From a virus: a DNA stretch of 20,796 nucleotides. The DNA lies in the IMG/VR virus record IMGVR_UViG_3300007345_000381, positions 1 to 20,796 of that record; one strand, written 5' to 3'. Position numbers and translations under genes: made by a program. The first letter of the stretch is position 1. Every line of letters begins with the position of its first letter. The notes under the pieces are model-generated. The model was not told where the DNA came from. It made no database searches and was given only the letters and a program-made list of their open reading frames with translations. Below are positions 1-9,954 of this stretch, in pieces.

Positions 1-633
1 GCGAAAGGAAAATCCAAGCGCACATTTGGAAAAGGTAAAAAGGTAAATGTGGAACAGTTACTGGCCGCTCCCGTATCGCGCACCGATTCAACCACAATCG
101 AAACTTTCGCGGCTGAAATCAAAAGCATTCATGCGGAAATGGTCAAAGGCCAATTTGAACAGGTAAAAGCATTCTCGGAAATGGGCGCGCGTTTCCTGAA
201 AATCAAAAAAGCGATCATGATTGAAAAGGATTTCAAGGATGAAAAATCGGCTGATACTGAATTCGGGAATCGCTTGAAACTTCTCGGATTGGGTACGGAC
301 GTTATCAACCGTCCAACGCGCCAAGCATACATCGCTCTGTCTGGCAAACTGACTCAAGCGAAAAAGTTTGTTTCGGATGCGGTAACAGCATTCGCAAATG
401 ATCCAAAGAATGCGGACAAGGTAACTAAAGCAACCGCGAACGACTACGCGCAATTGAAACTGACAGCGCCAGTACTCGCAAAACGCATGGGGCTTCTCGG
501 TTCCACCGAATCAAAACCGGCTGTTGATACGCTCGCAAAAATTGTTGAGAACGTACAGAATCGCGTTGAAAAGTTGGAAGATGTTTCAATCGCTCAAGTG
601 ATCGAAGCATTGCAGAAAATCCAAGATGCGTAA
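1..633 (+). CDS. Hypothetical phage protein, probably 5'-truncated by the window edge
   Basis: I do not recognise this protein with confidence. The reading frame is open from base 1 to the TAA at 631-633. It may therefore be the 3' part of a longer gene, or it may start at the GTG at 49, which has a modest AAGG five bases upstream and follows a stop in another frame at 44-46. GTG starts are rare here, so I favour a truncated gene. The first 16 residues, if translated, are Lys/Gly-rich. From residue V17 the protein is helical and charged, with a region (EMGARFLKIKKAI, then EFGNRLKLLG) loosely like DUF3102-type small DNA-associated proteins; that similarity is weak. The stop codon lies inside a copy of the palindromic motif and is followed by a UUCG terminator, so this is the last gene of its operon. 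Confidence 0.7.
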   Translation, partial: AKGKSKRTFGKGKKVNVEQLLAAPVSRTDSTTIETFAAEIKSIHAEMVKGQFEQVKAFSEMGARFLKIKKAIMIEKDFKDEKSADTEFGNRLKLLGLGTDVINRPTRQAYIALSGKLTQAKKFVSDAVTAFANDPKNADKVTKATANDYAQLKLTAPVLAKRMGLLGSTESKPAVDTLAKIVENVQNRVEKLEDVSIAQVIEALQKIQDA

Positions 634-647
634 AAATATTTTACACT
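627..647 (+). promoter_or_regulatory. Palindromic motif copy 1
   Basis: Arms TGCGTAA (627-633) and TTACACT (641-647) flank a 7-base A/T centre. The left arm contains the stop codon of the preceding gene and the motif sits 10 bases before the UUCG terminator. Unlike most copies it has no start codon just downstream, so it is probably not simply a translation signal. Confidence 0.6.
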
Positions 648-656
648 GAATCAATG

Positions 657-680
657 CCCCACTTCGGTGGGGTTTTTTTT
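657..680 (+). terminator. Rho-independent terminator with UUCG tetraloop
   Basis: A 6-bp stem CCCCAC/GTGGGG (657-662 and 667-672) closes a TTCG loop and is followed by eight T residues (673-680). It ends the operon of the first gene. Confidence 0.93.
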
Positions 681-722
681 CGTCTGGATTTTTTTTTGGA
701 ATTACTATCATCTACTATCACG

Positions 723-746
723 TGTCTGAGTGCCTGAGTGCCTGAG
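723..746. repeat. Three tandem 8-bp repeats (TGYCTGAG)
   Basis: TGTCTGAG, TGCCTGAG and TGCCTGAG follow each other without gaps. Just upstream, TACTATCA is repeated at 703-710 and 713-720. These lie between the terminator and palindromic motif copy 2, in what must be the regulatory region of the next gene. No convincing -35/-10 pair could be found here, so the repeats may be binding sites for a regulator, but that is inference. Confidence 0.55.
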
Positions 747-759
747 CGCAAAATCGTAA

Positions 760-780
760 TGCGTAAAAATTTATTACACA
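760..780 (+). promoter_or_regulatory. Palindromic motif copy 2
   Basis: TGCGTAA (760-766), centre AAATTTA, TTACACA (774-780). It is followed within 3 bases by the Shine-Dalgarno AGGAG and then by the ATG at 795. Confidence 0.7.
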
Positions 781-794
781 TAGGAGTGTGAAAA

Positions 795-1010
795 ATGTCA
801 TTAGTTCTAGATTACCCATCAAAGAAGAGTCTTAAAGAGTGTATCGGTCAGCCGTTAGTGTACAGCGATCCGTCTGCCGATATTTTTGGTGCGAAGGATT
901 ATTCCAACGCGACTGTCTATGGTTCCAACCGTCCGTACCTTACCGGTCACAAGCGCGAGTTTTTTGCGAGTGTGGTCATTAAGGATGGTTTGATTGTAAA
1001 GGTGTCTTAA
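795..1010 (+). CDS. Small hypothetical protein (71 aa)
   Basis: Unrecognised, but very likely a real gene. It begins with ATG about 8 bases after an AGGAG that directly follows palindromic motif copy 2. It opens MSLVLDYPSKKSLKECIGQP and has a central segment SNRPYLTGHKREFFASV. My recollection is that short proteins with this opening and a TGxxREFFA segment occur in several unrelated phages without known function. There are no membrane segments or cysteine pairs. It is the first gene of a two-gene unit; the next gene begins 2 bases after its stop. Confidence 0.85.
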   Translation: MSLVLDYPSKKSLKECIGQPLVYSDPSADIFGAKDYSNATVYGSNRPYLTGHKREFFASVVIKDGLIVKVS

Positions 1011-1011
1011 T

Positions 1012-1257
1012 ATGTGGAAGTTTAGCTTTGGTGCGCTCGCATTGCGGGTGCTGTTTGGGTTCTTTGTGTTGCTTGGTCTGTTCGTGTTCGTGGTTGGGTT
1101 ATCGCTTGCGTTTACCCGTCCTGAGAACCTGTCAGTGTGGCACAGTGTGTTTGATTGGGTCGTTCCCTTCATCGGGTTCGTGTTTAGTTTCTGTTCTCTG
1201 TTCGTGTTCACACGGATTGAGGTCTGGAAGTGTGTAGAAGTATCACTTGACAAGTAG
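1012..1257 (+). CDS. Small membrane protein, two transmembrane helices
   Basis: An 81-residue protein with two strongly hydrophobic stretches, about residues 8-33 and 47-67, joined by a short polar loop (TRPENLSVWHS). It ends in a charged tail, SLDK. It is probably an inner-membrane protein of the infected cell. No signal peptide cleavage site or lysis motif is seen, and it lies outside any lysis cassette, so I would not call it a holin. It starts 2 bases after the previous stop, which suggests translational coupling. Its last codons overlap the -35 box of the next promoter (1247-1252). Confidence 0.8.
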   Translation: MWKFSFGALALRVLFGFFVLLGLFVFVVGLSLAFTRPENLSVWHSVFDWVVPFIGFVFSFCSLFVFTRIEVWKCVEVSLDK

Positions 1258-1275
1258 TCAATAGTGTGAGACAAT
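1247..1275 (+). promoter_or_regulatory. Sigma70-like promoter P1
   Basis: A perfect -35 TTGACA (1247-1252), a 17-bp spacer and a -10 GACAAT (1270-1275). The region shares two blocks, TCACTTGACAA and GTCAATAGTGTGAGA, with promoter P2 at 2669-2697. TTGAC and GTCAA form a small inverted repeat overlapping the -35 box, a possible operator. A start near 1282 would give a leader with a 9-bp hairpin (1287-1295 with 1302-1310) and palindromic motif copy 3 before the GP88-like gene. Confidence 0.75.
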
Positions 1276-1318
1276 AGTTGCATGGTTGGGAAGTGTCTGT
1301 TCACTTCTCAGCCAGTAA

Positions 1319-1339
1319 AGCGTAAAAATTTATTACACA
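1319..1339 (+). promoter_or_regulatory. Palindromic motif copy 3
   Basis: AGCGTAA (1319-1325), centre AAATTTA, TTACACA (1333-1339). It lies about 50 bases downstream of promoter P1 and 18 bases before the ATG at 1358. Here the motif is within the transcribed leader if P1 is used. Confidence 0.68.
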
Positions 1340-1357
1340 TCAAATGGAGATGTTGAT

Positions 1358-2098
1358 ATGAAATTACTTAATACATCAAACGGCAACACAAAGATTGCCA
1401 AGTCGTCTAAGTCTAAACTGGGTACAGACAAGGTGCGCATCGCGTCTCTGTCGATGATACCCAACATCCATCTGTGTCCATCGCAGGAAATTGCAGGCTG
1501 TCGAGAGGCGTGTCTAGTTAGTGCAGGGCGTGGAAGGTTTGACAATGTGGCAGAGGGTCGCAGACGGAAGACCGATTGGTTCATGGGTGATCGTGACGGG
1601 TTCGTTGTGCAGTTGCGCAAGGAAATGACATCGTTCATCAAGACGTGTGATCGTCAGGCTGTCAAGCCAGTGTTCCGCCTCAATACGATTTCCGATATTC
1701 AGTGGGAGCGATTGATTGATATCAAGGGTGAATTTGGTGATGCATTTCTGTACGACTACACCAAACTTGCAGGGCGTTTGGGCAAGACTCCAGACAATTA
1801 CAGTCTGATGTTTTCATTCAGTAATGCCAGTAAGTATCGCAATCAGCTATCGCTTGCCATGCGTAGTCACACGGACACACCAATTGCTGTGGTGTTTGAC
1901 TGTGATATTCCTAAGACATTCTTGGGACGGCCTGTCATCTTTGGTGATGATTCCGATATCGTTAACGTGCAGTCTGGCCGTGTGGTCATCGCACTGAAAG
2001 CGAAAGGTCAGGCCAAACAAGATACGTCTGGCTTTGTGGTGCGTGATCCTGAGTTGGTTCAGCGTGGGTATGGTATTGATCTGATTGCAGTAGCGTAA
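1358..2098 (+). CDS. GP88-like phage protein (gene product 88 family)
   Basis: This 246-residue protein resembles the phage 'gene product 88' family, first named in mycobacteriophage L5 and found in many phages; its biochemical role is not established. Supporting features are the N-terminal NTKIAKSSKSK segment and the cysteine cluster at C40, C48 and C52 (CPSQEIAGCREACL). SAGRGRFDNV follows, then VFRLNTISDIQWE and FLYDYTK, all in the expected order. The cysteine spacing suggests metal or cluster binding, but this is inference. The start is ATG at 1358 after GGAG at 1346-1349. Promoter P1 and motif copy 3 lie directly upstream, and its stop codon is embedded in motif copy 4. Family assignment is from memory of motifs. 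Confidence 0.78.
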   Translation: MKLLNTSNGNTKIAKSSKSKLGTDKVRIASLSMIPNIHLCPSQEIAGCREACLVSAGRGRFDNVAEGRRRKTDWFMGDRDGFVVQLRKEMTSFIKTCDRQAVKPVFRLNTISDIQWERLIDIKGEFGDAFLYDYTKLAGRLGKTPDNYSLMFSFSNASKYRNQLSLAMRSHTDTPIAVVFDCDIPKTFLGRPVIFGDDSDIVNVQSGRVVIALKAKGQAKQDTSGFVVRDPELVQRGYGIDLIAVA

Positions 2099-2112
2099 AA
2101 ATATTTTACACA
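2092..2112 (+). promoter_or_regulatory. Palindromic motif copy 4
   Basis: AGCGTAA (2092-2098), centre AAATATT, TTACACA (2106-2112). The left arm holds the stop codon of the GP88-like gene, and the right arm is followed by AGGAG for the next small gene. Confidence 0.68.
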
Positions 2113-2126
2113 TAGGAGAAATGAAC

Positions 2127-2288
2127 ATGAAGAAATTTATTATTTGGGAGGATGCTTCTGTCGTGAACAAGTACATCGTGGAAGCAGAGACAGAAGAACG
2201 TGCCAGAGAAATGGTAACTGAGGGTGAAGTCGCGCCAGATGAGCAGGACTTCAAAGAATTTGAAATTGTAGAAGTTTTGGAGAAATAA
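2127..2288 (+). CDS. Very small acidic hypothetical protein (53 aa)
   Basis: ATG at 2127 lies 8 bases after AGGAG (2114-2118); an in-frame ATG at 2121 is too close to that signal. The product starts MKKFIIWEDASVVNKYIVEA and continues with a run rich in Glu. The pattern, a short beta-like start followed by a helix with ETEERAREMV, is typical of small phage accessory proteins that I cannot name. It is sandwiched between motif copy 4 and the next gene, which starts 2 bases after its stop. The good ribosome binding site and tight packing support it. Confidence 0.75.
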   Translation: MKKFIIWEDASVVNKYIVEAETEERAREMVTEGEVAPDEQDFKEFEIVEVLEK

Positions 2289-2290
2289 AC

Positions 2291-2662
2291 ATGACTGAAT
2301 TTTATGTAACAACACAATGCTTAGAGAACTATGGCGCACATGGTGGCACAGGTAAGTTTGCGGACGATCAAAGTTATTGGAAGTTCAAGTCAGGCACAGA
2401 CTATATCGTGTCTGGATTGGACAGTCGCCAAGATGCTATGGCATTCGTTGCGTCCATCTGTATGTATAACGGCATCGGATGGAAGGAGTTCCCGTCTGAG
2501 TGCATACCGATGGATGAGTGGGAATCTAAGTGGGACATGAGCAATGAGCACCATGTGGAGTACCGTGACTTCAAGTTGGAGTATGTACAGCGTGTCGATC
2601 CTCGCACCTTTGATAAGGCTAAAGAGGAACGCAGGATGCGTATGACTCTGGGTGACTTTTAG
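2291..2662 (+). CDS. Conserved hypothetical phage protein (123 aa)
   Basis: The start is ATG at 2291, 8 bases after GGAG and 2 bases after the preceding stop. The N-terminal part has a distinctive pattern: FYVTTQCLENYGAH, then GKF, YWKFKSGTDYIVSG and DAMAFV. I recall similar uncharacterised proteins in other phages, with no function assigned. The C-terminal third is charged (KAKEERRMRMTLGDF). Aromatic residues and the single QCLENYGAH block suggest a small folded domain; I see no catalytic motif. Promoter P2 begins just after its stop. Confidence 0.82.
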   Translation: MTEFYVTTQCLENYGAHGGTGKFADDQSYWKFKSGTDYIVSGLDSRQDAMAFVASICMYNGIGWKEFPSECIPMDEWESKWDMSNEHHVEYRDFKLEYVQRVDPRTFDKAKEERRMRMTLGDF

Positions 2663-2668
2663 TGTCAC

Positions 2669-2697
2669 TTGACAAAGGGTCAATAGTGTGAGATACT
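2669..2697 (+). promoter_or_regulatory. Sigma70-like promoter P2
   Basis: -35 TTGACA (2669-2674), a 17-bp spacer, -10 GATACT (2692-2697). The -35 region and spacer closely repeat promoter P1, including the TTGAC/GTCAA inverted repeat. The predicted start is near 2704, only about 28 bases before a strong terminator, so most transcripts should end after about 50 nt. Confidence 0.75.
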
Positions 2698-2731
2698 ATA
2701 CAGGCTGAGAGATCACACCAGTTCCCTCATT

Positions 2732-2755
2732 GCCCCACTTCGGTGGGGCTTTTTT
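2732..2755 (+). terminator. Rho-independent terminator with UUCG tetraloop
   Basis: A 7-bp stem GCCCCAC/GTGGGGC (2732-2738 and 2743-2749), TTCG loop and six T residues. It is nearly the same hairpin as at 657-680 and 20488-20510. It lies between promoter P2 and the next gene, so it may act as an attenuator. Confidence 0.93.
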
Positions 2756-2760
2756 AATGC

Positions 2761-2781
2761 GGCGTAAAAATTTATTACACA
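2761..2781 (+). promoter_or_regulatory. Palindromic motif copy 5
   Basis: GGCGTAA (2761-2767), centre AAATTTA, TTACACA (2775-2781), then AGGAG and ATG at 2795. It begins 6 bases after the T-run of the terminator, so a transcript for the next gene must either read through or start at or near this motif. Confidence 0.7.
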
Positions 2782-2794
2782 TAGGAGAATAAAT

Positions 2795-3154
2795 ATGTAT
2801 GAAGTTTATCAGCTACCGTTTGAGGTGGCAGAGCGTTTGATGGAAGAGAAATCTACCAGTCCATTCATGTACCGTGGTTTGCAGTATTCTGACTCACCAT
2901 ATGAGTACACGAAGCAAGTCGCTCAGAAATTGTTTGAGAAGAATGGGTATCGTGCCGTGGCTCGCTTCAATGTGAACTCACTGGACGATGTATTCAGTGC
3001 ATCTGGTATGGGGGATGAGTCAGTGATTGAACGTCTCACTACGATGCACACAGTGAGCGTGGGTGACATCATCCGTGATGTGGAGTTGGATGATTACTTT
3101 ATCGTGAACCCAATGGGGTTTGATTTCATGGGTAAGTTAAGGAGAGTTGTATGA
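2795..3154 (+). CDS. Hypothetical protein (119 aa)
   Basis: Not recognised. The ATG at 2795 has AGGAG 7 bases upstream, right after motif copy 5. The product is a soluble alpha/beta-looking protein. It has an N-terminal helix (LPFEVAERLMEEK) and a segment rich in Tyr and Ser (YRGLQYSDSPYEYTKQ). The C-terminal part (TVSVGDIIRDVELDDYFIVNPMGFD) reads like a small beta barrel. No cysteines or catalytic motif are evident. It shares an ATGA overlap with the next gene and the two are surely co-translated. Confidence 0.83.
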   Translation: MYEVYQLPFEVAERLMEEKSTSPFMYRGLQYSDSPYEYTKQVAQKLFEKNGYRAVARFNVNSLDDVFSASGMGDESVIERLTTMHTVSVGDIIRDVELDDYFIVNPMGFDFMGKLRRVV

Positions 3155-3381
3155 GTGACTTCAGAGAAGCGATGGCTATCGTTGAGCCGTATGCCGTGGA
3201 GAATGGTTGGGTGTTCAAGACTGGAGATGGTGTCGCTACGAGTACTCCGGATATGCTGATTGCCTTAGAGAATATGGTACAGCAAGAGGAGAATGATGAG
3301 TTACCAGATGAGATACGTCCTGCGTATCGTGTGGTGATGCACTCATTCGGTAAGTTGTTTGAACCCGTAGAAGAGGAGTAA
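3151..3381 (+). CDS. Hypothetical acidic protein (76 aa)
   Basis: Not recognised. ATG at 3151 overlaps the previous stop (ATGA) and is preceded by AAGGAG at 3139-3144. The 76 residues are acidic overall (QQEENDELPDE, then EPVEEE at the C-terminus) with two predicted helices. No motif is visible. Small acidic early proteins of this kind are common in phages and often bind host proteins, but nothing here shows a target. A terminator-like hairpin follows at 3409-3437. Confidence 0.8.
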   Translation: MSDFREAMAIVEPYAVENGWVFKTGDGVATSTPDMLIALENMVQQEENDELPDEIRPAYRVVMHSFGKLFEPVEEE

Positions 3382-3405
3382 TTTATATTTGAGACTGCGC
3401 TTTTA

Positions 3406-3492
3406 ATGAGTGTCCTGATCTTGGGACACTTATTTTTGCGAACATTAGAGTTGGTAATTAACTGGTTACGTCCTGCCAAGAAAAAGCAGTGA
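3406..3492 (+). CDS. Possible tiny membrane peptide (28 aa)
   Basis: An open frame encodes MSVLILGHLFLRTLELVINW followed by a basic tail ending KKKQ, which looks like a single transmembrane helix with a positive C-terminus. The frame is open further upstream to a stop at 3379-3381. If translation began at an ATA at 3385, a GAGGAG at 3374-3379 would be well placed and the product would gain FETALL. The ATG itself lacks a good ribosome binding site, and the coding sequence overlaps a terminator-like hairpin, so this remains doubtful. Confidence 0.35.
   Translation: MSVLILGHLFLRTLELVINWLRPAKKKQ
3409..3437 (+). terminator. Probable rho-independent terminator
   Basis: A 7-bp stem AGTGTCC/GGACACT (3409-3415 and 3424-3430) with an 8-base loop is followed by TATTTTT. 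It is weaker than the UUCG terminators but well placed after the two-gene unit at 2795-3381. Confidence 0.6.
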
Positions 3493-3517
3493 CAATACTT
3501 ATGTAAGGAAATGAACT

Positions 3518-3799
3518 ATGAAAAGAGTTGATCTATTGAAGATGCAGTTGATGAACAGCAAAGGCCGTTTCTTCACTGCTGAGTGGAAGGGTCGTGTCGG
3601 TGACATGATCAAAGCAAACTTCAAAGTGACTGCGATTGAGGGGGTCAGTGATGACTCAATCTCCTGTCGCATCTTTGTACCGGCATACAAGCGTCACTAT
3701 GTGATGACGTTCTTTGTGAATGCCAAGGGGGACTGCACTTATATTGCGAGTGACAAGTCGAAGTTTGAGATGTCTGGACAGCAGGCATTTAAGTTCTAA
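3518..3799 (+). CDS. Hypothetical basic protein (93 aa)
   Basis: ATG at 3518 follows TAAGGA by 8 bases. The product is basic and begins with an amphipathic helix (MKRVDLLKMQLMNSKGRFF). The following segment looks beta-rich, with alternating hydrophobic residues (KANFKVTAIEG, SISCRIFVPAYKRHYVMTFFV). SKGRFFTAEWKGRVGDMIKANFK resembles the start of small phage proteins with an SH3-like barrel that may bind nucleic acid, but I cannot assign a family. It is a single-gene unit followed by the long inverted repeat. Confidence 0.8.
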   Translation: MKRVDLLKMQLMNSKGRFFTAEWKGRVGDMIKANFKVTAIEGVSDDSISCRIFVPAYKRHYVMTFFVNAKGDCTYIASDKSKFEMSGQQAFKF

Positions 3800-3811
3800 T
3801 TAATGATGGGG

Positions 3812-3832
3812 TGTGTAATATTTTTTTACGCA
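3812..3832 (-). promoter_or_regulatory. Palindromic motif copy 6 (reverse orientation)
   Basis: TGTGTAA (3812-3818), centre TATTTTT, TTACGCA (3826-3832). Read on the minus strand it matches the usual asymmetric consensus, with GCGTAA on the left. It forms the outer left arm of the long inverted repeat. Confidence 0.65.
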
Positions 3833-3956
3833 TCACTAAGGGTATCTCGCTACTGCTCACTGTTATGCATGACAGCGCAGGTGCGTATCGGGAGGTTCGT
3901 AGCCTCTGCGGGTAGCAATGTAAATGCTGTGACTATTTGTCAGGTATCCTTAGTGA

Positions 3957-3977
3957 TGTGTAAAAATTTATGACACA
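3957..3977 (+). promoter_or_regulatory. Palindromic motif copy 7
   Basis: TGTGTAA (3957-3963), centre AAATTTA, TGACACA (3971-3977, one change from the other copies). It forms the outer right arm of the long inverted repeat and precedes the ATG at 4003. Confidence 0.65.
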
Positions 3978-4002
3978 TCACTTTTAACTGAGGAAATAAA
4001 CT

Positions 4003-4227
4003 ATGAGTAAACATATTCGTGTGAAAGTAACGTGTGAGATTGAGTTTGACTTGATGGATCTTCATGAGAATGTAGCGTATGAGATTCGTGAGGCTGAAGG
4101 ACTCGATGAGTTTGATGCGATTGAAGATGAACAGATCATCCGATACATTGAGGCTCAGGATGTGTATGAGTTGAATGATGTATTCAGCATCGTTGATGCT
4201 GACATTCAGGAGGTAATCGTAGAATGA
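4003..4227 (+). CDS. Hypothetical acidic protein (74 aa)
   Basis: ATG at 4003 follows AGGAA (3991-3995) by 7 bases and lies downstream of motif copy 7. The protein is strongly acidic (GLDEFDAIEDEQIIRYIEAQD) after a beta-strand-like start MSKHIRVKVTCEIEFDL. The alternating hydrophobic pattern of this start resembles that of the 61-residue protein at 17177-17362, so the two may be distant relatives. Function unknown. It opens a chain of five overlapping small genes ending at 4865. Confidence 0.8.
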   Translation: MSKHIRVKVTCEIEFDLMDLHENVAYEIREAEGLDEFDAIEDEQIIRYIEAQDVYELNDVFSIVDADIQEVIVE

Positions 4228-4924: not shown

Positions 4925-5833
4925 ATGAGCGTATATCAAGACTTTAACGGAATCCTTCCACTTTCTGAAGTAGCACCATCACTGGTGTTTGAACCTAAGC
5001 GTGAGGCATTGCGTCACAATGGACTGCTTGTGAAGGATAAGTTCGCAATCATCAACCCTACCATTGGTGACATTGATCCACTGACTGGTCTGCCCAAGGG
5101 TGAGGTCATGCAGGTTGTAGGTAATAACCATGTGGCTAACGCTTACACCATCATGTGGGATTCCATGCGTGAGGGTATCGAGTTGTCTGGTCTGGATACA
5201 TCACAGATCAAGATCAAGTTCCTTATCGCACCGGATGGTGGTTCGTATTCGGCTGACATCATCTTCAAGCAGTATGAGTTTGAGCCTGCTGTGGGTGACG
5301 TACACTCAATGCGTTTCCGTATCTACGCTTCACATGACATGACGTTCAAGCATCACATCCAGTGTGGCCTGTTCCGCTACTGGTGTAGCAATGGGCAAGC
5401 GTCTATCGCTGAGAAGCTAGAGGTGTCAGCTAAGAACACACAGTCTGCTGATCCAGAGAAGCTAGGCCGTATCGTGGCAGACTTCCCTGCTCGCCTTGAG
5501 GCTGAGGCTGAGTTGTACAAAAACATGATGGCAACACCCTTGTCCAAGGATCGTGCTATGGAGTTCATTCGTGAGAATGTAGCTACCTATCGCATTGCAT
5601 CTGGTATCAAGATCAATCAGAAGTCTGTCGAGGAAGGTGCTCGCATCTGGAATATGTACAACAACCTTGGCGACACAGGCTACCGCTTGTTCAATGTCAT
5701 CACTCACATCGGCACTCATGTGACTGGCCGTGAGGGTACGAACATGGCACGGAAGCAAGCCATCATTGAGCAAAAAGCACAGGCTGTCGTTGATCTGCCT
5801 GAGTTCAAGCAACTGGTTGGCCTCGCGGCTTAA
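4925..5833 (+). CDS. DUF932 family phage/plasmid protein
   Basis: A 302-residue protein of the DUF932 family, widespread in phages and plasmids. Its molecular function is not established to my knowledge. The supporting features are the N-terminal GILPLSEVAPSLVFEPKREAL, the central segment YEFEPAVGDVHSMRFRIYAS and the hallmark CGLFRYWCSNGQAS (compare CTNGL/CSNGM blocks in the family). A long helical C-terminal half follows. The start is ATG 4925, 9 bases after TTGGAG, not the TTG at 4910. It has its own strong promoter (P3) and is followed by a hairpin at 5843-5867. It is probably highly expressed early in infection, which is inference from promoter quality. Confidence 0.8.
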   Translation: MSVYQDFNGILPLSEVAPSLVFEPKREALRHNGLLVKDKFAIINPTIGDIDPLTGLPKGEVMQVVGNNHVANAYTIMWDSMREGIELSGLDTSQIKIKFLIAPDGGSYSADIIFKQYEFEPAVGDVHSMRFRIYASHDMTFKHHIQCGLFRYWCSNGQASIAEKLEVSAKNTQSADPEKLGRIVADFPARLEAEAELYKNMMATPLSKDRAMEFIRENVATYRIASGIKINQKSVEEGARIWNMYNNLGDTGYRLFNVITHIGTHVTGREGTNMARKQAIIEQKAQAVVDLPEFKQLVGLAA

Positions 5834-9497: not shown

Positions 9498-9781
9498 TTA
9501 AGTTTGAATACAAACCGAATGTAATCAACACCCCCTTTGGGGCACTTGATGATCCTCCAGTGGAGAGCGTGACCATGACACTGGGCGGTGATGTCTCCTG
9601 GGAGGAGGCAGTCTGTGAATTCCACAACGTCCTACGTGCGGCAGGGTATGTGATCCCGTATGACTTTGAGGATGATTATGTAGACTGTTCAGATCCTCCT
9701 CACATGGACAAGAGGGGATCACTAGGTGATCGACAGCCTGAGTGGGCTAATCGTATGTGTGATGAGGAGAGGAACACATGA
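9494..9781 (+). CDS. Hypothetical acidic protein (95 aa)
   Basis: ATG 9494 overlaps the previous stop. The protein starts MIKFEYKPNVINTPFGALDD, contains a helix with EEAVCEFHNVLRAAGYVIP and an acidic stretch DFEDDYVDCSDPP, and ends in a polar tail. The pattern of a strand, then a helix followed by GY(V/I)(I/L)P occurs in several small phage proteins of unknown function. No catalytic motif seen. It overlaps the HTH gene by 4 bases. Confidence 0.78.
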   Translation: MIKFEYKPNVINTPFGALDDPPVESVTMTLGGDVSWEEAVCEFHNVLRAAGYVIPYDFEDDYVDCSDPPHMDKRGSLGDRQPEWANRMCDEERNT

Positions 9782-9954
9782 GTAACTATTGGCAGAACCA
9801 CAACACACGGAAGCTAGATCCAGAAGACGTAGTCCTCATCAGAGAGTTACACAAAGAGGGTCTGAAGTTGCAGGTCATTGCAGATAAGTTTGAGGTAACA
9901 AAAACAAATGTCAGCAAGATCGTGAACAAGAAAATCTGGGGTCATGTGGCATGA
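9778..9954 (+). CDS. Small helix-turn-helix DNA-binding protein (58 aa)
   Basis: ATG 9778 overlaps the preceding stop as ATGA. Residues 14-55 form a compact HTH: LDPEDVVLIRELHKEGLKLQ, then VIADKFEVTKTNVSKIVNKK. This matches the pattern of resolvase-like HTH domains and DNA-binding modules of homing endonucleases, with a turn at KFEVTK and recognition helix TNVSKIVNKK. It is the last gene before a gap with two inverted repeats, so it might bind there and act as a local regulator; that is inference. Confidence 0.8.
   Translation: MSNYWQNHNTRKLDPEDVVLIRELHKEGLKLQVIADKFEVTKTNVSKIVNKKIWGHVA

Follow-up and report, generated by a model that had tools for sequence, protein, structure and literature searches.

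The long inverted repeat and its loop

The stretch of viral DNA analyzed here, which we call the window (20,796 bases), belongs to a phage of the HMO-2011 type: the DNA polymerase that it encodes shares 60% identity with those of Puniceispirillum phage HMO-2011 and Roseobacter phage CRP-1. It also encodes a tyrosine integrase, a DnaB-type helicase and a ribonucleotide reductase. In the early region, a long inverted repeat lies between two genes of unknown function on the same (+) strand, one encoding 93 aa upstream (3518–3799, from the list of open reading frames) and the other encoding 74 aa downstream (4003–4227). A sigma-70-type promoter, predicted at 2669–2697 on the + strand, likely serves the operon that contains the element. 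An open frame at 3803–3973 (56 aa) spans the whole element and was rejected as a gene; by eye it lacks a ribosome-binding site, and it has no credible protein match.

On the + strand, the left arm of the repeat (3810–3847) pairs with the right arm (3942–3979) over 38 positions, with 31 Watson-Crick pairs, 4 G-U pairs and 3 mismatches. Within the arms, ATCACTAAGGGTATC (3832–3846, + strand) and GGTATCCTTAGTGAT (3943–3957, + strand) form an inner stem of 15 pairs, two of them G-U, or of 16 pairs when 3831/3958 is counted; in the predicted RNA fold, the 16 pairs between 3831–3846 and 3943–3958 have pairing probabilities of 0.99–1.0. A preliminary description of this DNA had claimed 37-base arms paired over their full length with few mismatches and 16 unbroken inner pairs with two G-U pairs, and both claims hold. 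All four transitions between the arms leave a G-U pair on the transcribed + strand and none leaves an A-C mismatch, an outcome with a chance of 1/16. Compared with shuffled controls, the predicted fold of 3810–3979 is far more stable on the + strand (−75.5 kcal/mol, z = −7.6) and on the − strand (−54.2 kcal/mol, z = −7.8), with 0 of 200 shuffles as good in either case. No other inverted repeat in 965 kb of related phage loci scores nearly as high (25 here, 18 at the next different locus). The repeat is a genuine and exceptional feature.

The whole of this folding signal resides in the long stem, since shuffling the left arm loses about 29 kcal/mol. The hairpins predicted in the 94-nt loop (3848–3941, + strand) are no better than those of shuffled sequence. 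Folded alone, 3847–3942 is about as stable as its own shuffles (z = −0.41); when only the loop is shuffled and the stem is kept, 94 of 300 shuffles are as good as the native sequence, so that the greater stability characteristic of a structured RNA is not found in the interior (z = −0.43). The loop had previously been drawn as a branched structure with a bulged 8-bp stem (3849–3856 with 3908–3916) and hairpins, and the unlike sequences of its helices were taken to make chance unlikely. That stem has a predicted pairing probability of 0.001–0.003, and a fold constrained to contain it is about 4 kcal/mol less stable; the argument from unlike helices fails because the strong z-score stems from the long stem alone. 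According to these folding calculations, a branched RNA inside the repeat is not supported.

An independent gene for a small noncoding RNA, working as a regulator or decoy under framing operators, would be structured, intergenic and bordered by operators on both flanks, and the element has these properties. However, no good promoter or terminator lies at its bounds, its interior fold is not significant, the searches described below found no copy elsewhere, and Rfam 15 yielded no match at the gathering threshold for either the whole window or the element alone. The best Rfam match, MIR4371 with 26.5 bits versus a threshold of 110, is a resemblance between long hairpins. We consider such a gene very unlikely.

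A stem-loop in a phage with replication genes and an integrase could also be a replication origin, as had been suggested, or an attachment site. Against an origin, the GC skew is positive to either side of the element, with no switch. Against an attachment site, there is no tRNA or tRNA-like match (a search for tRNA and tmRNA genes returned none), though the HMO-2011-type phage CRP-3 integrates at the 3′ end of tRNA-Met (PMC6918029). The integrase gene lies 2.7 kb from the element, and near relatives do without the insert. Either function is scarcely credible here.

A palindromic motif of the early genes

Each arm consists, in its outer half, of one copy of a palindromic motif, GYGTAAAAATNTNTTACAC, which we call M. 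The window contains seven copies with up to two mismatches, all within 628–3976, where 0.00 are expected from shuffles. On the + strand, M occurs at 628–646, overlapping the first gene's stop codon ahead of a terminator; at 761–779, upstream of the start at 795; at 1320–1338, upstream of the GP88-family gene (1358); at 2093–2111, overlapping the preceding gene's stop codon and upstream of the start at 2121; at 2762–2780, upstream of the start at 2795; and at 3958–3976, in the outer right arm, where the copy GTGTAAAAATTTATGACAC sits within a longer palindrome, AGTGATGTGT..ACACATCACT. The outer left arm holds M′, which reads GCGTAAAAAAATATTACAC on the − strand (3813–3831). Five of the seven copies end 9–26 nt before a start codon, commonly as ACACATAGGAG, and the ribosome-binding sites in these contexts are of the plain TAGGAG type.

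Six of the seven copies are oriented along the genes, and only M′ is reversed. The preliminary description had placed two facing operator-like motifs at the ends of the element. Both are present at the arms, but they are oppositely oriented and, relative to the other copies, point apart rather than towards each other. Two of the copies stand in longer arrays: at 1247–1338, a strong sigma-70-type promoter is followed by a 5′ hairpin (1247), M and a ribosome-binding site, and at 2669–2780, a strong sigma-70-type promoter is followed by a terminator-like hairpin (2732–2749), M and a ribosome-binding site.

As an RNA hairpin, forward M contains a C-A mismatch, and as DNA it is near-symmetric, which argues that M is a DNA site rather than an RNA site. 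Its near-perfect palindromic sequence suggests a dimeric binder. Any copy of M, being nearly palindromic itself, can pair with any other, and two copies lying close together therefore already account for much of the long stem. The inner stem does not follow from them. The centers of M′ and M are 145 bp apart, which is no whole number of helical turns, so DNA looping between them is not specially favored.

A repressor system is expected in this phage, since it carries a tyrosine integrase and a temperate lifestyle is documented for its relative CRP-3; that lifestyle, with the integration of CRP-3 at tRNA-Met, also makes an immunity system plausible (PMC6918029). No repressor gene was identified in the window, where a 58-aa protein (9778–9954) gave a sub-threshold HTH match only.

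The related phage locus L014 contains eight copies of another palindrome, GYGTAGGATTTTCCTACRC (up to two mismatches), and none of M; the window, conversely, contains none of GYGTAGGATTTTCCTACRC. The two palindromes replace each other one to one at syntenic sites before the GP88 gene, before the gene at 2121 and after the 93-aa gene. Between the window and L014, the proteins are 50% identical for GP88, 98% for the gene at 2121–2288 and 91% for the 93-aa gene. The set-wise swap of both half-sites, with genes that are little changed, argues for two repressor specificities, and GYGTAGGATTTTCCTACRC is probably the second operator specificity. The term operator-like is thus well supported, since the palindrome is phage-wide and a relative has exchanged its specificity across the whole set of sites. 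The individual sites in L014 (1912, 1937, 2793, 2914, 3201, 3938, 5289 and 8784) partly match the positions of M in the window. Beside two tandem operator copies, L014 also has dense nested palindromes and repeats (TTTGCGTGTCC) at 1700–1960, which may be a regulatory region or an origin lying ahead of the gene homologous to the first one in the window.

Among known systems, the nearest analogue of the M family is the ESAS sites of Cluster K mycobacteriophages. As described (PMC3203893), ESAS are imperfect inverted repeats found many times across the non-structural region, just ahead of ribosome-binding sites and start codons; almost all share one orientation, with one inverted exception in some phages, and RNA pairing is unsupported. 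The same paper reports that the ESAS/SAS consensus differs between subclusters, and the authors judge these to be DNA-binding sites of different specificities. The M family has the same characteristics: many copies in the non-structural region (seven, with 0.00 expected), association with starts in one orientation (5/7 within 9–26 nt, 6/7 along the genes) and a set-wise difference in specificity (eight GYGTAGGATTTTCCTACRC and no M in L014, the reverse in the window). In contrast to M, which is an AT-rich palindrome of 19–21 bp, ESAS are described there as 17-bp half-sites with a 4–13 bp spacer and a separate 13-bp GGGATAGGAGCCC box; the hosts are different, and in the available text no ESAS pair surrounds a long insert (PMC3203893). 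The Cluster K consensus, with its 13-bp GGGATAGGAGCCC box beside 17-bp repeats, is absent from the M sites. By this analogy, M would work like ESAS but is no member of that family.

Two other repeat families bear a looser likeness. The stoperators of Cluster A mycobacteriophages are also genome-scattered repressor sites with phage-specific immunity types, but their descriptions present them as asymmetric and bound by a monomeric repressor (PMC6550527, PMC9283540), whereas M is a near-perfect palindrome. The 17-bp palindromic repeats of Cluster O mycobacteriophages are likewise short, dyad-symmetric, present in many copies and often intergenic, but they number more than 30 genome-wide, many inside genes, with one specificity across the cluster (PMC4351075). 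M has seven copies, all of them in the early region, and two specificities occur among relatives.

The same intergenic slot in relatives

The presence of the insert aside, the slot after the 93-aa gene contains one palindrome in each of the window, L007, L014 and L017. L007, whose 93-aa protein is 100% identical to the window's, has one reversed M; L017, whose 93-aa protein is 61% identical, has one reversed M followed by an unrelated hairpin of about 60 nt; and L014 has one palindrome of the GYGTAGGATTTTCCTACRC form where the window has M′. In L007 and L014, the palindrome is directly followed by the next ribosome-binding site, without the insert, and in L014 the gene that follows is the homologue of the 74-aa gene. 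The insert, together with a second M, is present only in the window and in one contig that is 99.97% identical. The insert is accessory and, judging from these loci, intergenic pieces are exchanged in these phages like the surrounding small genes.

The termini of the insert, searched as exact end patterns, have no further copy in 2.9 million viral contigs or 84,980 bacterial genomes, and the core hairpin strings, also searched as exact patterns, occur nowhere else in viral or bacterial genomes, a rarity that holds for close copies only because exact patterns miss diverged homologues. Sensitive blastn of the core against phages and plasmids returned nothing significant, and blastn and nhmmer against all related loci returned the same phage alone. 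Several candidates were rejected. Among 32 stem-pattern matches in viral contigs, all but the same phage lack the extended stem or a similar core; M copies paired at a distance of 108–138 bp yielded the same phage and two unrelated matches; and L007 5351–5470, a seeming moved copy with a high fold z-score, lies in coding sequence and is unrelated.

A small mobile element with terminal inverted repeats had also been put forward; it would be MITE-like and inserted beside an operator, and the empty slots of L007, L014 and L017 fit this part of the proposal. The rest of the evidence opposes it: the termini have no second copy in the collections searched, no target duplication is visible, the arms differ at 7 of 38 positions, and the unrelated hairpin in the L017 slot looks more like a mosaic exchange of intergenic pieces. 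We judge a mobile element to be extremely unlikely.

Hairpins are found between other genes of these phages. An intergenic hairpin of about 60 nt, absent from the window, is common to L017 304–362, L017 4685–4746 and L016 5878–5936; it reads TTAG(T/C)CACCTGCC, a variable apical stem and ATCGGT..GACTA, with a conserved CCTGCC/ATCGGT part and differing apical stems. L014 7305–7390 and L060 3293–3375 share a homologous intergenic stem-loop (common GGTAGGTATTACCTGACCCTGTTTACC) whose outer stems differ; in L014 it sits between homologues of the window genes at 4925 and 5893, and a short hairpin takes that place in the window. HMO-2011, CRP-1 and CRP-345 have in common long, AT-rich hairpins between genes, built around ACTTGATACTTTAGTGAAAGT (L018 1–60, L018 1185–1260, L019 975–1045 and L020 802–875). 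The hairpins share TTGATACTTTAGTGAAAGTGTTATATAAC-like sequence, in which by eye TTGATA and TATAAC are placed like promoter hexamers; they may be promoter-operators, and long palindromes in this group may therefore often be promoter-operator DNA.

An alternative is that the element works mainly as RNA. A long hairpin in a polycistronic early transcript would be a substrate for cleavage by a double-strand RNase (RNase III, for example) or would shield mRNA ends, and would thereby set the levels of downstream genes. Stems of this length are sufficient for double-strand RNases, and the RNase III sites of phage T7 are long irregular hairpins between the genes of a polycistronic early transcript. 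Several observations favor such a role: the arms are 37–38 nt long and fold with the stability given above, all of their transitions are G-U on the transcribed strand, same-strand genes lie on both sides downstream of a sigma-70-type promoter, and other intergenic hairpins exist in relatives (L016/L017; L014/L060), some with different stems around conserved parts. Unlike the T7 sites, however, the outer stem here consists of operator copies, which account for it. The loop folds no better than shuffles, and no homologue was found in the searches described, hence no covariation; L007 and L014 lack the stem. A mainly RNA-based role is possible, though unlikely.

A proposed two-operator control region in the early operon

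We favor, with a probability of roughly 55%, an intergenic two-operator control region in the early operon of an HMO-2011-type phage. The M copies, both of those at this element among them, would be the targets of a candidate regulator encoded by the phage, most likely a repressor acting as a dimer, and its binding would turn the early operon down from sites scattered through the early genes, usually just upstream of a ribosome-binding site. At this element, an insert of about 120 bp would separate two operators, with its ends forming the inner stem of 15–16 bp. The readthrough transcript is predicted to fold into one long hairpin as well, which may mark a processing or stabilizing point in the mRNA.

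Two properties of the stem bear on this two-operator reading. An operator does not need the inner stem, which counts against it; this stem may act as an RNA hairpin or as a cruciform. The four arm transitions that all preserve pairing on the + strand are a weak sign of selection as RNA and speak against a pure operator reading. In a combined arrangement, the insert would be the gene of an undescribed phage RNA, and its closing stem would double as operators, serving as DNA for the repressor and as RNA for an RNase or another partner; we regard this combination as decidedly unlikely.

Under the two-operator reading, the long inverted repeat is a striking composite in a single phage and not evidence for a new RNA class. 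The broader finding would be a control system of multiple operators in marine HMO-2011-type phages, whose specificity comes in at least two exchangeable forms. The M and GYGTAGGATTTTCCTACRC palindromes would provide a sequence handle with which to predict immunity groups from metagenomic data and to track down the regulator.
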